This document shows, piece after piece, positions 47,768 through 54,126 of a DNA stretch of 64,000 nt. Made by a program: the position numbers and the translations under genes. This stretch comes from an uncultured Erythrobacter sp. (GTDB taxonomy: Bacteria > Pseudomonadota > Alphaproteobacteria > Sphingomonadales > Sphingomonadaceae), in the NCBI GenBank assembly GCA_947493165.1, contig CANLPY010000001.1, positions 682,001 to 746,000 on the forward strand, written 5' to 3'. Each line of letters starts with the position of its first letter. Within the stretch, counting starts at the first letter, position 1. A model generated the notes under the pieces. That model was given only the letters and a program-made list of their open reading frames with translations, did no database searches and was not told the origin of the DNA.

Positions 47768-48124
47768 ATGATTACCTTTAATGTTAGTGATGAAATCGGT
47801 ACCGCCCCGAGGACACCGGCGTTGGAATGGTCATGGACGGGCTTGCAGTCATGCACAGCAAGATTGCTGATCGAAGAGCGCATCCGCGTCGAATTCGAAA
47901 GGGTCGCGCAAAATGTACCGGCCTCAGACTTTTTCGCCGAACTATCGGGCGGGCTCGATGGTTATGTCGATAAGATCATTGAGAAAGCTCTCGCAGCTTT
48001 TAGCGCTGGAAAGCTGCTCCTCATCGTCAATGATAAGCAAGTCTCCAGTCTCGACGAGATGATCCCAATTCAAGAGAGCAACAATGCCGTTTTTCTAAGA
48101 ATTGTGCCATTGCGGGGAGGTTAG
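47768..48124 (+). CDS. MoaD/ubiquitin-like protein ending in LRGG, 118 aa
   Basis: ATG 47768 has GTGAGAAG upstream. A beta strand at the start (MITFNVSDE), a helix (TARLLIEERIRVEFERVAQN), an inserted loop-helix (SDFFAELSGGLDGYVDKIIEKAL), then LLLIVNDKQVSSLDEMIPI and FLRIVPLRGG. The last part follows the MoaD/ThiS pattern (LLVAVNG...), where the C-terminal Gly-Gly is activated by an E1-like enzyme. Seen: the sequence ends exactly in LRGG. Inferred: a beta-grasp modifier or sulphur carrier. Its last codons (CGG GGA GGT) also form the ribosome site of the next gene, so GG might be kept for that reason. First gene of a three-gene operon. Confidence 0.7.
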   Translation: MITFNVSDEIGTAPRTPALEWSWTGLQSCTARLLIEERIRVEFERVAQNVPASDFFAELSGGLDGYVDKIIEKALAAFSAGKLLLIVNDKQVSSLDEMIPIQESNNAVFLRIVPLRGG

Positions 48125-48127
48125 ACT

Positions 48128-49984
48128 ATGGGGCTTATCGACGATTTTTGGCCAGATCGAAATGAGGTGCCCGAATACGAGAAATTTCTCGACAGCTTTG
48201 GCAGTCGTCTTTCGCGCCCATTCAGCACATTTTCCTACGAGGCGCGTCATGTGGTTGATGCGCTTGAAAGATTGAGTGAGCCAGAGCGGGAATCTTTGTT
48301 TTTGTCGATGCAGGGCTATCATCTTTCCGCGGACGAACTCTCCTACCACTGTCGCGAGGAATTTGCTGCTCTGTTGGACTGCCTCCTGCGCGCGGGTCTT
48401 CCGGCCACTCTCCCAGTGTTAGATCTGCTGATCAAGATACTCCATGAACCAGCAAATGGGTATCGCGGATACTACCGTTTTTTGCGAGTGGGGCCTTACT
48501 TGGCAGAAATCGCTGAAGCGGGTTATCACTTCTCCCGCGAGCAGAAGGATCGCCTCGGCAAACTAGCGCGAAAACTAGAGAAGCGAGTCGACAAATCTTA
48601 TACGAGAGACGAGCAGAACAAGCTGTTGCGGCTAATCAAACAGCTCGATGGACACGCTGAAACGCCTGCGGCTGATCTCGGCACCAAGCGGCAGTTGGTA
48701 GAGGCGTTCTTAAAGTTTGAGCGATCACCGAACCACTTTCGTCCACTGCCGGAAAATATCGAATTTTGGTGCAGCTTTCTCGATCTTGTTTCTGATAAGA
48801 CACAGCTTTTGAAACAAGAAATTGCTTCCAAAGAAGCGAAATGGTTGGTTGATGAAGATGCGTTCCATGCGCGCTTTCGTTCGGTCGCTGACGTACCTAT
48901 CGAATTTGGTTTCTGGCGTTCGGAAAGTTTGGCGTACGGCCATATTGACGGGCGGAACTTTGCCTACTTACTTAAGCCGGAAAAGGAAGATCGCAGGGAT
49001 CCAGTCCTTCCACGTATTCCATACGAAACTCTCCTTCAGCTGAGGGAGGAATTAGAACCTCTGGCTGACCATGATTGGTCTCAGCCTTGGATGCCAGGGG
49101 CAGAAATTTTGATTGGGCAACGATCAGACAACGACATCGAATTACTCATGATGTTGAGCGAGGCGAAGGCAGGACCAAAACCGCCAGCAAAATGGGGCAA
49201 ACAGGTCCAAAAACTAATTGCGGAGATTGGAGCCGAGGAAATCCGCCTGCGCTTCGCGCAATGGCTAAGAATATTTTGCCGGCCCGGCTTCAACGACGTG
49301 ACGATTGAACAACTTTCTGACTGTCACACTCGAGCGTTGCACGCGCAAACGTTTAATCTACTCTTTCCGCATTGGAAAAACCTGAAAAGCGAGGATATCG
49401 AGTCATTAGCCGAGTGGGTTGGATTGGCCGCATCTGGATATGTCCAGTCGACTCGTGTTTCGATTGACGGCTTCTTCCAACACCATAGTACCATGTTGAG
49501 TGAAAGTGAGCGAAAGCAATTCTTCGCTCCACTCGGATCGCAGGGTGATGAAAGCTGCAGCGCCTATTATGGATTATTTCGTTATCTAGATGCTGAACGG
49601 TTTGATCTCGGCAATGCCTATCGCCGCCCCTATGTTTTCCCTTCACTCAAGAATGAAAACACATTGCGCGCGGTCACTTGGCTACTTGGTGATGTGCCTA
49701 CTCCGGGAAACGTGTCTCTGCTGGAAGACATGGTGATGGCCTCAACCGGAGTCAAAAACAGTGACCGATATCGTTCGCGCAGTGCAGCTAACGCTGCAAT
49801 CACAAGTCTTGGCAGGATTGGCACAGCCGAAGCTTTACATGCACTTGGACGCTTGAGGCGCTCGATCAAAGACAAGTCAATCGGCAATACAGTGCAAAAG
49901 GCGATCAACAAGCTCGCCGAAATGCACAGTGTCGAGCCTGACGATATCGCCGAACAGAGCCTGCCTGATTATGGCCTCGACTAA
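48128..49984 (+). CDS. HEAT-like N-terminal half of a DUF4132 protein, 618 aa
   Basis: ATG 48128 lies 3 bases after the previous stop, with GGGGAGG eight bases upstream. All-helical protein with HEAT-like repeats, clearest at the end (AANAAITSLGRIGTAEALHALGRLR). It ends VEPDDIAEQSLPDYGLD, which in full-length DUF4132 proteins is the linker just before the DUF4132 domain. No catalytic motif is seen. Its stop overlaps the next start by 14 bases. The DNA is less GC-rich than surrounding genes. Confidence 0.8.
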   Translation: MGLIDDFWPDRNEVPEYEKFLDSFGSRLSRPFSTFSYEARHVVDALERLSEPERESLFLSMQGYHLSADELSYHCREEFAALLDCLLRAGLPATLPVLDLLIKILHEPANGYRGYYRFLRVGPYLAEIAEAGYHFSREQKDRLGKLARKLEKRVDKSYTRDEQNKLLRLIKQLDGHAETPAADLGTKRQLVEAFLKFERSPNHFRPLPENIEFWCSFLDLVSDKTQLLKQEIASKEAKWLVDEDAFHARFRSVADVPIEFGFWRSESLAYGHIDGRNFAYLLKPEKEDRRDPVLPRIPYETLLQLREELEPLADHDWSQPWMPGAEILIGQRSDNDIELLMMLSEAKAGPKPPAKWGKQVQKLIAEIGAEEIRLRFAQWLRIFCRPGFNDVTIEQLSDCHTRALHAQTFNLLFPHWKNLKSEDIESLAEWVGLAASGYVQSTRVSIDGFFQHHSTMLSESERKQFFAPLGSQGDESCSAYYGLFRYLDAERFDLGNAYRRPYVFPSLKNENTLRAVTWLLGDVPTPGNVSLLEDMVMASTGVKNSDRYRSRSAANAAITSLGRIGTAEALHALGRLRRSIKDKSIGNTVQKAINKLAEMHSVEPDDIAEQSLPDYGLD

Positions 49985-51383
49985 ATCTACAAAATCAGCT
50001 GCAGAGCTTCCAATTGGTGATTGGCAAGCAAGGGTTGCGCTGGATGTGGACGGTAAGCCGTTCGCACGATATGTTTCAACTGATGGTGCAGTTCATAAAC
50101 GACTGCCTCGTAAGATCAAACAATTGGCCACGCGCTCGCAGCTTCGGGCGTTAGATAAACGGCTCACGGATATTAAGTCTGCTCAGCTAGAAGCCCGCAA
50201 ACGGCTTGAACAGACGTATCGTAACGGCCGCGAATGGGCACTGGCTGATTGGCAAGACCGATACCAGAAGCAACCCTTGATGCGGCGCATGACCGAAAGA
50301 CTAATCTGGGAATTGCACCACCCTACCAAGTCGGCCAAGCTAGCCTTGGGTACTGCTCCGGAATTGACCGGGCTTGATGGAAACCCAGTACCAATCTCTG
50401 ACGATGACTACAGAATTAGACTGTGGCACCCAGCAAACACAGCTGCTAACGTCGCTAGCCAATGGCGTAGAGCATTGCTTGAAAAGGAAATCAGGCAGCC
50501 CCTTTGGCAAGCATGGCGACCAGTTTACTCGCTAACCGATCCTGAAAAGAGGACTGCTCTATATTCTAATCGGTTTGCAGGGTTGCTGTTGTCCCAACCA
50601 GTCTTCGTCCGTGTCCTTCGCAACCGCGGTTGGGAGCTTAAAAGCCGTATGAAGTGGGACGACGATCCGAGCCAGAAGCTCGCCAAGCCCGCGCGTCTAA
50701 TGCTTCCAAGCTGCGGCCTTATTGCAGAGTATTGGGGACGAGGAGCAGGCAGCTTTCAAACGGGCCACGAGTATGGAGCCCCAAATTTCGAGTACTTCGC
50801 CACATCCCAAATTAGGTTCTACAACACGAGCGAAGATAGTGCGGCCGGGGCGGTATCCGTTCCACTTTCCGAGGTTCCCCTTCGGGCATTTTGTGAAGCA
50901 ATGTTCGACATTGAACTCGCAACAGGACTTTCAGTTACAGGCTTGGACCAGCATTGGTCTGATCCCGGATTGAACGTCGATTTACCACTCAAGAATATCG
51001 ACATTGTTGCTGGTCAATTGGATAATTCAGTTGACCGCCTTTCGCCCGGAGAGCTGGGAAAAATCCGCATAGAATTGCTAAAGTGGCTCATTCCACGTTT
51101 GGCCATTGCTGAAAAACTCGAACTCCATGGCCATAATCTGAAAGTGCGAGGCAAATGGCACGATTATGAAATCCACACAGGCAACGCAGCTGTGCGAATA
51201 GTCGGCTTAAACAGACACCTTTGCATAGTGACCGGTGGAAATTCTGGCCTAGCATCCACAGTAACGCTGCCTTTCGCAGGAGACGATATTTTGGCCATTC
51301 TGCTCTCAAAAGCTCACATGCTCGCCGACGAAAATACTATCAAAGACCCTTCGATTCTTGCGCAATTGCCAAAGCCAAAATAG
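49971..51383 (+). CDS. DUF4132 domain protein, 470 aa
   Basis: ATG 49971 (MASTKSTKSAAELPIGDW) is chosen over 49929: it lies in the last codons of the upstream gene and removes residues unlike the family. The DUF4132 pattern is readable: RLEQTYRNGREWALADWQDRY, LMRRMTERLIWEL, then RLWHPANT and the QPLWQAWRPVYSLT block. E. coli YehI/MolR carry the same domain, with unknown function. Fused partners (WGR, MoxR, VWA) are absent here. The frame is +1 relative to the preceding gene. Confidence 0.82.
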   Translation: MASTKSTKSAAELPIGDWQARVALDVDGKPFARYVSTDGAVHKRLPRKIKQLATRSQLRALDKRLTDIKSAQLEARKRLEQTYRNGREWALADWQDRYQKQPLMRRMTERLIWELHHPTKSAKLALGTAPELTGLDGNPVPISDDDYRIRLWHPANTAANVASQWRRALLEKEIRQPLWQAWRPVYSLTDPEKRTALYSNRFAGLLLSQPVFVRVLRNRGWELKSRMKWDDDPSQKLAKPARLMLPSCGLIAEYWGRGAGSFQTGHEYGAPNFEYFATSQIRFYNTSEDSAAGAVSVPLSEVPLRAFCEAMFDIELATGLSVTGLDQHWSDPGLNVDLPLKNIDIVAGQLDNSVDRLSPGELGKIRIELLKWLIPRLAIAEKLELHGHNLKVRGKWHDYEIHTGNAAVRIVGLNRHLCIVTGGNSGLASTVTLPFAGDDILAILLSKAHMLADENTIKDPSILAQLPKPK

Positions 51384-51684: not shown

Positions 51685-52158
51685 ATGTCTGTGACATCAC
51701 CTTTGACTGTTGTCGGCTGGCGCGAGCTGGTCGATCTGCCGCAGCTGGCTTTGACAGGCGTGCCAGCCAAAATTGACACCGGCGCGCGAACATCATCACT
51801 CCATGCGCATGTTCTTGAAGAATTTCAGCGCGATGGGGAAAGCTTTGTCAGGTTCGCGGTTGATTGGAACGATATCCGCCACGAATGCGAAGCGATCCAC
51901 GTCGATGTGCGCGGGATCACAAGTTCAAACGGAGAGACCCAGCGGCGCTATGTCATAAAGACCCCGCTAGCTATCGGCGGAACGCAAGTTCGCGCGGAAA
52001 TAAGTTTAGCCGACAGGTCAGACATGCAATTTCCGATGTTGATTGGCCGGTCCTCGCTGCGCCGCCGCTTTCTTGTCGATAGCGGCCGTTCATGGCTGCA
52101 AACCCCAACGAAACGCACCTCCCTTGCCCCCGAACCAGATTTGGAACCACCGCAATGA
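51685..52158 (+). CDS. RimB-like ATP-dependent zinc protease (retropepsin fold)
   Basis: 157 residues from ATG 51685 after AGAGGA; the frame is open upstream but without a site. [13 protein letters not shown] with the aspartic protease-like D31-T-G, and the C-terminal [16 protein letters not shown], mark the RimB/PF05618 family. In Pseudomonas this protein is encoded with RimK and counters its glutamylation. Overlaps rimK by ATGA. Confidence 0.86.
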
Positions 52159-53060
52159 AAATCGCAATGCTTGCTCGCAACCCCAACCTCTATTCGCATA
52201 AAAGAATGGTGGAGGCGGCCGAACAGCGCGGGCACACGCTCGATATTCTCAACACCACGCGCTGCACCGTTAACATCGCGAGCCACCGTCCCACTGTGAT
52301 GTACAAAGGCGAAACGCTTAGCGGCTATGAAGCCGTGATCCCGCGTATTGGCGCATCGATCACCAGTTATGGCCTCGCTGTTCTGCGACAGTTTGAAATG
52401 GGCGGCGTGTGGCCGCTTAATGAAAGCGTCGCCATCGGCAGAAGCCGCGACAAGCTGCGCTCAACGCAGATTATGGCAAAGCACGGCCTTGGCCTGCCGC
52501 TGACATCATATGCCAATGATCCCAAGGCGGCTGAGGAAATCATTAAAGCGGTCAACGGTCCGCCGGTTGTGATCAAACTGCTGGAAGGAACGCAGGGGAT
52601 CGGCGTCGTTCTGGCGGAAACTCTTAAAGGCGGCGCGTCGATCATTGAGGCGTTTCGCGGCGCCAATATTGCGATTATGGTGCAGGAATTCATCAAGGAA
52701 GCCGGCGGTTCAGACATTCGCTGTCTCGTCGTGGGCGGCAAGGTCGTGGCCGCGATGAAACGGCAGGGAGCCGAAGGCGAGTTCCGCTCTAACTTGCACC
52801 GCGGCGGCAGCGCCGAATTGATCAAAATCACGCCAGAAGAACGCTCCACCGCCGTTCGTGCGGCTAAGGTCATGGGCCTGAATGTGTGCGGCGTTGATTT
52901 GCTAAGGGCTAATCATGGCCCAGTCATTATGGAGGTCAATTCTTCGCCAGGCCTTGAGGGTATCGAAAATGCGACGGGCAAGGACATCGCTGGGATGATC
53001 ATCGATTTTCTGCAGGAAAACGCCAAGCCGGGAAAGACAAAGACTCGTGGCAAAGGATAA
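52155..53060 (+). CDS. rimK: RimK-family ATP-grasp glutamate ligase
   Basis: 301 residues from ATG 52155 (MKIAMLARN), which overlaps the previous stop. ATP-grasp motifs [14 protein letters not shown] and [21 protein letters not shown] are intact. RimK adds glutamates to the C-terminus of ribosomal protein S6. Start 52092 would add 21 residues inside rimB. Operon with the neighbours. Confidence 0.92.
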
Positions 53061-54126
53061 AGTAGGCGCCGGGACGAGCCGCGATTCAAAGCGCGCTCCG
53101 TTTGAAATCGGCGGCCAAACAATTGCTGCCGGCACGGCCGCAACCGTTCAATTGCCGATCAGCCGGCTATCCACTCATACTGAGATAAACCTGCCGGTTC
53201 GCGTCATGCATGGGCGAAAGCCCGGCCCGGTCTTGTTCGTGAGTGCCGGGGTGCACGGCGATGAAATCATTGGCGTTGAAGTCATCAGAAGGCTGCTAGC
53301 CAAGGTGCAACTCAGACGCTTAAGCGGCACGCTCATCTGCATCCCTGTGGTGAACGTTTTTGGGTTTATCCAGCATCAGCGATATCTGCCTGATCGGCGT
53401 GACCTTAATCGCTGTTTCCCCGGCTCTGCGACGGGATCATTGGCCTCTCAACTGGCTCATGTGTTCACCTCAGAAATACTTGAGCGCAGCGACTTTGGGA
53501 TCGATTTGCATTCAGCGGCGATCCATCGCACCAACTACCCGCAAATCCGCGTGAGTGATGACCGTCCAAAAGCTCAGGAATTGGCCGCTGCGTTTGCGCC
53601 GCCCGCTATCATCACATCGCCGCTCAGGCCTGGATCGCTGCGCGCTTCGGCCTTGGATGCGGGAACCGATGTGCTTTTGTTTGAGGCCGGCGAAGGTCTC
53701 CGGTTTGATGAATTCGCCATTCGCGCCGGCTTGAAAGGCATCTTGCGGGTCATGGTGCACCTGGGGATGCGCCCTGCTTCTGCATCGCTGGTGCCACGCG
53801 TCGAACCAATTCAATCGAACAAGAGCGGCTGGGTAAGAGCGCCTGAAGGCGGCATATTTCGGGCCAAGAAAAAGGCTGGTGATCTGGTGCGTGCCGATGA
53901 GGTCTTAGGCGTGGTGTCTGACCCATTTGGAGATGTTGACATACCAGTGACTTCAAACCGAGACGGCCTAATTATTGGCGCGGCGGTGCTGCCGGTGGTC
54001 AACATGGGAGACGCTTTGATGCACATTGCCCAAGTCCGCCGAGTTGAAACCGCCGCTCTGCGCTTGGATCAGATCGAAGACGATACTTTGTCTGATCCCA
54101 TGCTGGATGAAGATGAGCTGCTCTAA
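53047..54126 (+). CDS. Succinylglutamate desuccinylase/aspartoacylase family protein
   Basis: 359 residues; GTG start at 53047 inside rimK (14-base overlap). Zinc ligands H70 and E73 (GVHGDE) and H155 (DLHSA) are present, with the arginine-rich [10 protein letters not shown] typical of M14-like deacylases. The C-terminal 100 residues form a lipoyl-like/barrel domain ([21 protein letters not shown]). Its target may be an N-acyl or glutamyl product linked to RimK action; this is inference from the operon. Confidence 0.88.

Follow-up and report, generated by a model that had tools for sequence, protein, structure and literature searches.

A Gly-Gly-ended ubiquitin-like protein and a DUF4132-DUF7737 protein form a recurrent gene pair in bacteria

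We found that a small ubiquitin-like (Ubl) protein with a bare C-terminal Gly-Gly is encoded beside a protein carrying the domains DUF4132 and DUF7737 in a wide range of bacteria. The pair is represented in a 64,000-nucleotide stretch of DNA from an uncultured Erythrobacter sp. (contig CANLPY010000001.1; the whole stretch is hereafter the window), in which gene 1, encoding the Ubl (47768..48124, + strand), is followed by genes 2 and 3 (48128..49984 and 49971..51383, + strand), encoding the N-terminal and C-terminal halves of the partner. The phenomenon is far wider than this window. We propose, with a probability of about 0.5, that the two proteins form a minimal Ubl system with a likely role in stress, in which the partner's DUF7737 domain engages the Gly-Gly end via a conserved cysteine (Cys418 in gene 3 numbering).

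Recurrence of the gene pair across bacteria

Loci were collected by scanning public genomes with a profile made from a DUF4132 alignment; the scan patterns lie within DUF4132 and make no selection for the Ubl or for Cys418. The named loci are the best 80 of 207, taken as the best tblastn matches to a query that includes DUF7737, and they therefore over-represent the DUF7737 branch. Rows that were copies of other loci (L001-L005, L008 and L017, the last being the L023 locus) were dropped. A Ubl gene adjoins the DUF4132 gene in 75 of these 80 loci, a recurrent pairing that bears out the functional link put forward in the initial annotation of the window. Where the Ubl gene comes first, the gap is -4 to +58 nucleotides in 66 of 67 loci and 216 nucleotides in one, as measured from the Ubl stop to the nearest start codon and hence biased towards small values; the gene order is reversed in four loci (L034, L057, L087 and L091). 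The five loci with no adjacent Ubl lie at a contig edge (L045, L051 and L066), on a 4-kb contig (L073) or within real flanks (L101). When the whole genomes of these five were searched, the Ubl was found on another contig in four, and in the L101 genome (Paludisphaera soli) it adjoins a different DUF4132-DUF7737 gene.

The same association is seen in genome samples of the order and phylum of the window, for which at most 14 (order) or 10 (phylum) Ubl candidates were scored per genome, so that the counts are lower bounds. Among 296 genomes of the order, relatives of gene 1 occur at at least four loci in at least three genomes (the window, L006, L007 and L008), each immediately preceding a DUF4132 gene (in the two split loci, the gene for the N-terminal half). 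Among 398 genomes of the phylum, the Ubl is present in at least three, always beside a DUF4132 gene (in the window, beside its other half). Among the named loci, the hosts that carry a Ubl belong to 11 phyla, namely Pseudomonadota, Actinomycetota, Chloroflexota, Cyanobacteriota, Planctomycetota, Verrucomicrobiota, Acidobacteriota, Armatimonadota, Bacteroidota, Myxococcota and Calditrichota, and additionally to Deinococcota. For 63 pairs, the distances of the Ubl and those of DUF4132 are correlated with a Pearson coefficient of 0.78, and the highest value among 2000 permutations was 0.33; shared species history contributes to the correlation. By this survey, the arrangement in the window goes well past what chance would produce, and we consider a functional link between the Ubl and the DUF4132-DUF7737 protein to be strongly supported. 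One Ktedonobacter genome (G686) has three Ubl matches, and its loci L136 and L137 hold partner open reading frames (ORFs) of 1706 and 1617 aa.

Fold and C-terminal end of the Ubl

The initial annotation had described gene 1 as a MoaD/ubiquitin-like protein, and structure prediction agrees. An AlphaFold2 model, built on a 68-row Ubl alignment from which 12 near-copies or partial Ubls out of 80 were omitted, has a mean predicted local distance difference test score (pLDDT) of 91.9 and a predicted template modelling score (pTM) of 0.85. The elements follow the beta-grasp order, with strands at residues 2-10 and 16-23, a helix at 31-47 and strands at 83-87, 98-100 and 104-111; two additional helices, within residues 54-79, lie between the main helix and the next strand. 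The top Foldseek match was MoaD (5mpo) at E 8e-3, with none at or below 0.001. About half of the 50 matches listed were ubiquitin- or MoaD-type chains, and the remainder were mostly PI3-kinase chains and staphylococcal superantigen-like or Eap domains. With VIA, gene 1 aligned to MoaD (5mpo_B) with Z 7.8, covering 80 of 84 residues, a score shared by a U11 small nuclear ribonucleoprotein (snRNP) chain, and to ubiquitin with Z of about 6.5-7 over 70-78 residues at 2.2-3.1 Å; MoaD and ubiquitin matches together span Z of about 6.5-7.8 and a root-mean-square deviation of 2.2-3.5. We accept the fold despite these middling Z values because most VIA rows are of the ubiquitin type and span the whole target domain, and we regard a beta-grasp (MoaD/ubiquitin) fold as established at the level of prediction. 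Sequence profiles place the protein outside every curated family: gene 1 gave no Pfam or NCBIfam match above cut-off and no match to ThiS (PF02597) at E <= 1. Across the alignment, weak ThiS matches occur in 3 of 68 members (best E 0.0067) and an Urm1_like match in 1 of 68, and a search of PDB sequences with the 68-row profile retrieved no Ubl, its one match having E 0.84.

Conservation of the Gly-Gly end in homologues had been set beforehand as a test of the assignment, and GG forms the exact terminus of 77 of 79 homologues; the longer ending PLVGG is found in 53 of the 79. In the window, gene 1 encodes 118 aa ending FLRIVPLRGG, followed by the stop codon TAG, with Gly117-Gly118 at 48116..48121 (+ strand). 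The two other ends among the 79 are KGS (LKGS; L054) and GGIR (L089), and two further ends outside this set are SGRLW in Bacteroides and LAGA in Verrucomicrobiota.

DUF7737 in the Ubl-linked partners

Gene 3 matches DUF4132 (PF13569; 50085..50633, + strand; E 2.4e-35, 122.5 bits, cut-off 27) and DUF7737 (PF24879; 51060..51368, + strand; E 7.2e-25, 87.4 bits, cut-off 27). DUF7737 marks the Ubl-linked branch of DUF4132 proteins. Specifically, 80 of the fetched DUF4132 ORFs carry DUF7737 and have a Ubl in their locus, 15 have neither, and six carry DUF7737 but lack a Ubl in their locus (two from L045 and one each from L051, L066, L073 and L101), while three ORFs with no DUF7737 in Ubl loci are N-terminal halves of split genes. 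In the 296 genomes of the order, DUF4132 occurs at six loci and DUF7737 at four, which are exactly the Ubl loci. Of seven DUF7737-less DUF4132 proteins scanned, two contain WGR, three HEAT and two neither; MoxR-type AAA genes adjoin the DUF7737-less loci L009, L010, L018 and L020, and DUF5682 genes adjoin L009 and L012. In a DUF4132 tree, 11 of the 15 DUF7737-less ORFs form one supported, separate clade; absent from the tree are L019 and three L021 ORFs, all DUF7737-less. ORFs shorter than 150 aa were excluded, and for this reason the D. ficus locus (L108), which does have a Ubl, is labelled Ubl-less there. One DUF7737-less row on a long branch lies outside the main DUF7737-less clade: on a Burkholderia plasmid (L111, 2859-5340), the gene for a 724-aa DUF4132 protein overlaps by 8 bases with the gene before it, which encodes a 104-aa annotated transcriptional regulator, and no Ubl is annotated. 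Duplicate DUF4132-DUF7737 genes, in tandem or divergent, occur in L032 (2768-8347), L045 (3-4138) and L075 (2442-8191), with one Ubl each in L032 and L075.

Within DUF7737, Lys447 (codon 51309..51311, + strand), Asp459 and Gln465 are present in 76 of 76 alignment rows, and Cys418 (codon 51222..51224, + strand) and His402 in 75 of 76. An AlphaFold2 model of gene 3 on the 76-row alignment has pLDDT 90.0 and pTM 0.89. A Foldseek search with the whole 470-residue model gave nothing at E <= 0.001, and the best VIA rows reached Z 6.8. Among unrelated chains, the low-Z VIA rows include Atg10 (3.1 and 2.9), a CENP complex chain (3.8) and Knl1 (3.2), which we take to be of the UBC/RWD class. DUF7737 in the model runs in the order helix, strands, Cys418 and helices; in the UBC fold the active-site cysteine follows the last strand. 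DUF7737 also bears a local resemblance to the E2 motif.

Joint loss of the Gly-Gly end and the DUF7737 cysteine

The Gly-Gly end and the cysteine tend to be lost together, and Cys418 is our candidate partner of the tail. On a Bacteroides finegoldii plasmid (L106, 2084-7601), the Ubl ends in SGRLW and the cysteine of its DUF5724-DUF4132-DUF7737 partner is replaced by Ala; a rhomboid protease gene lies immediately upstream of this pair. On an Acetobacter plasmid (L107, 3777-6575), a DUF4132-DUF7737 gene has no Ubl in the locus and shows Cys to Phe and Lys to Arg replacements; a helix-turn-helix and BrnT-type toxin gene pair is found nearby. In Verrucomicrobiota (L122, 2712-8239, minus strand), the LAGA tail was seen first and the partner then fetched to ask whether its cysteine was lost: the partner, a 1709-aa ORF that groups with DUF5724-type proteins in the tree, has Phe in place of Cys. 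The same genome (G674) also encodes a second Ubl ending PLVGG. Both LVGG and the cysteine are kept in the Ktedonobacter sister of the L122 pair, and four Deinococcus loci keep both the LAGG tail and the cysteine. A tree constraining the Bacteroides and Verrucomicrobiota rows to one clade was rejected (p-AU 0.011), suggesting two separate losses of tail and cysteine. Counted per DUF7737 domain with a Ubl at hand (two each for L032 and L075; L118-L120, with partial or distant partners, excluded), 85 combine the cysteine with GG, two the cysteine with another tail, one GG with no cysteine, and two have neither (one-sided Fisher test, p-value=0.0044, or 0.0003 with Acetobacter counted as GG-less; as the rows are related, these values are indicative only). 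From these sequences, the Ubl end and the DUF7737 cysteine seem to work together, and we regard this as the main clue to mechanism.

The Deinococcus radiodurans pair

The D. radiodurans locus L105 comprises trxC, a 134-aa hypothetical protein ending LAGG and a 1626-aa DUF5724-DUF4132-DUF7737 protein. We equate it with DRA0165-DRA0166 (SEP068184) because the gene order (Trx1 gene DR_A0164 upstream) and the upstream motif agree. It holds the same combination of Ubl and DUF4132-DUF7737 protein as the window; the N-terminal part of DRA0166 is DUF5724, whereas the window partner has a shorter HEAT-like region. The accessible part of one report places DRA0165-DRA0166 among the targets of DdrO, with a motif at -83, and in the radiation/desiccation response (RDR) regulon; mitomycin C increases tagged DRA0166 in the wild type, whereas an irrE mutant shows no such rise (PMC8533742). 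In the accessible part of a second report, DR_A0165 increases on gamma irradiation and H2O2, has a predicted MoaD-like structure, occurs in Deinococcus only and shows no RDR motif (RDRM) (PMC9650054). The restriction to Deinococcus is contradicted by our finding that the family is pan-bacterial, and the lack of an RDRM is contradicted by the RDRM-like sites that we found and also by the available text of PMC8533742. All four Deinococcus loci have such a site upstream; it departs from the consensus at three positions in D. ficus and at one position in each of the others. The scan used what we take to be the RDRM consensus. LexA-type boxes, searched with patterns likewise assumed by us, stayed at background level upstream of 75 Ubl genes (0-1 match per pattern), and we have set aside SOS regulation outside Deinococcus. 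In its accessible part, another paper speculates on a Ubl modification system in D. radiodurans (PMC8832034). A literature search that covered few subscription journals and few bioRxiv preprints returned no paper describing the pair as a family and no relevant paper for DUF7737 or DUF5724.

Proposed mechanism and alternatives

We propose that gene 1 would be translated as a beta-grasp protein with a free Gly-Gly end and that genes 2 and 3, a single protein in most relatives, would form its dedicated partner. The DUF7737 domain would bind the Ubl, and Cys418 would engage the C-terminal glycine, most likely in a covalent intermediate such as a thioester; target selection would probably fall to the HEAT-like N-terminal part. 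The glycine could be activated by a housekeeping MoeB/ThiF-type enzyme or by DUF4132 itself, and the window genome (99.99% complete) encodes one ThiF-family enzyme besides two ThiS-type matches. The likely role would be modification or control of proteins under stress, which we suggest because the Deinococcus pair is switched on by DNA damage, and which may hold beyond Deinococcus as well. The initial annotation had named protein modification, sulphur transfer and conflict as options; the Deinococcus data point to a stress response and the joint loss of tail and cysteine to chemistry at the tail. A bolder version, which we offer tentatively and consider doubtful, is that DUF7737 might be a cysteine-dependent Ubl-transfer domain, E2-like in role and perhaps in fold. 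The HEAT-DUF4132-DUF7737 protein might then be an all-in-one enzyme that charges the co-encoded Ubl and selects its targets, with DUF4132 possibly a non-ThiF activator, and the whole could amount to a pan-bacterial stress modification with no dedicated E1.

Several observations weigh against the proposal of a cysteine-engaged Gly-Gly end. L085 retains LVGG although Leu replaces the cysteine, L054 (LKGS) and L089 (GG followed by IR) retain the cysteine despite altered tails, and the set of joint losses is small and its rows are related. A comparison of DUF7737 with a profile of four yeast E2s by hhalign, a low-power test, gave no signal, and the DUF7737 profile retrieved no E2 from either the PDB sequences or Pfam. 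An E2-like identity of DUF7737, to which the low-Z structural rows and the local motif resemblance point, is retained solely in the bolder version above. No E1-like gene was found to recur near the pair in the neighbour clusters or in a Pfam scan of 136 neighbouring proteins (called as longest ORFs, no more than one from either side of a locus), in which 25 of 112 Pfam families were listed and each of the 87 others matches at most one neighbour. Nor did the clusters and the scan show a recurring E2, JAB, RING or protease, and the 25 largest neighbour clusters listed contain no third conserved gene; several of them are chromosomal context common to related genera such as Streptomyces. In D. radiodurans, deletion of DR_A0165 raises survival in H2O2, by itself no sign of modification, and co-immunoprecipitation with DR_A0165 gave 157 proteins and an interaction with Trx1, with DRA0166 not named among them in the accessible part of the report (PMC9650054).

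Some of these observations would be expected if the Ubl were a non-covalent subunit or plug, its Gly-Gly end threading into a partner pocket formed in part by Cys418 and taking part in no transfer chemistry. Near-constant pairing, the lack of an activating enzyme in the operon and the retention of one of tail or cysteine in L085, L054 and L089 all suit such a subunit, and a buried contact too would let the two vary together. Mere contact explains poorly why Gly-Gly is the exact terminus, with no residue beyond it, in 77 of 79 homologues, as a bare terminal Gly-Gly is a hallmark of activated Ubls, and we hold this arrangement to be possible, though on balance improbable. A sulphur carrier of the MoaD/ThiS/Urm1 type would also use the terminal glycine: a housekeeping E1-like enzyme would form the thiocarboxylate, and the partner would use the sulphur with participation of Cys418. 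MoaD is indeed the top structural match, weak ThiS matches exist, the window genome contains one ThiF-family enzyme, and DUF4132 has been tied by name to molybdate through MolR. The neighbour scan shows no recurring family of cofactor, tRNA-thiolation, rhodanese or cysteine desulphurase type, with one DndA-type PADLOC match among the 136 neighbours, and the patchy distribution (at least 3 of 296 genomes of the order) is ill-suited to a cofactor route, making a sulphur carrier unlikely. The same patchiness across phyla, together with occasional copies in a plasmid collection, could indicate a phage-defence or toxin-antitoxin-like conflict system employing a Ubl. This seems more unlikely still, since the window genes have no PADLOC match below E 0.036 (best ZorC), the 136 neighbours show only scattered PADLOC matches and no defence-island context, no copies were found in the viral contigs or phages searched, and the Deinococcus genes are regulated by DNA damage. 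Adjacency with no function, as operon hitch-hiking of unrelated genes, is effectively refuted by pairing in 11 phyla and Deinococcota, by the reversed order in four loci, by the Ubl on another contig in four of the five exceptions, and by the linkage at domain level and joint losses described above.

Compared with known systems, the Ubl shares its beta-grasp fold and bare C-terminal Gly-Gly with MoaD, ThiS and Urm1. It differs in its helical insert, in the scarcity and weakness of its ThiS and Urm1_like profile matches, in the dedicated DUF4132-DUF7737 partner and in that no E1-like enzyme or synthase partner is seen in the operon. Prokaryotic Ubl-conjugation operons, as described in the accessible part of PMC7159879, likewise combine a bacterial Ubl with a conserved neighbourhood (E1, E2, JAB and RING, some with MoxR-vWA-FtsH), whereas none of these four was seen to recur near the present pair. 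The MoxR/DUF5682 and WGR (MolR/YehI) types have DUF4132, and in some cases HEAT repeats, in common with the partner described here, but their 15 ORFs have neither DUF7737 nor a Ubl in the locus. The gene pair supplies DUF7737 and the DUF7737-bearing branch of DUF4132 proteins with a concrete partner and with a residue that may be the active one. It also brings an operon induced by radiation in Deinococcus, with a small protein reported as genus-specific in the accessible text of PMC9650054, into a family of 11 further phyla. If the Gly-Gly end were charged onto the partner, this would be a bacterial Ubl system with no linked E1 or E2, which would bear on the origin of Ubl conjugation. The question is testable now in D. 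radiodurans, a harmless laboratory organism for which, according to the accessible parts of the published work, a DR_A0165 deletion and a tagged DRA0166 already exist.

The Erythrobacter locus

The gene order, the 3-base gap between genes 1 and 2, the 14-base overlap between genes 2 and 3 and the LRGG end given in the initial annotation were all recovered from the ORFs and the sequence. Gene 2 encodes 618 aa and gene 3 encodes 470 aa from its ATG, or 484 aa from an alternative in-frame GTG at 49929. We read genes 2 and 3 as the split form of a usually single protein, because a profile of gene 2 with its relatives matches, over its final ~100 residues, the stretch preceding DUF4132 in many fused homologues. 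The description of the locus as a split HEAT-DUF4132 protein thus stands for the split, while the HEAT label is weak (HEAT_2 E 0.019, below cut-off). Residues 196-322 of gene 3 (50556..50936, + strand) form a YugN-like region, with a middling VIA Z of 6.8 to 2r5x and 2pww. Genome G211 has the identical three-gene order, with 58% identity to the window in the Ubl and ~60% in gene 3, and in Rhodoblastus acidophilus (L022, 1453-8395) the Ubl is followed by three paralogous HEAT-type genes and then the DUF4132-DUF7737 gene. In the DUF4132-region tree, these two group with the window with support of 100/99. An adjoining operon of the window (51691-54126), not recurrent beside Ubl pairs, encodes a RimB-like aspartic peptidase, a RimK-type glutamate ligase and an AstE/AspA-type deacylase.

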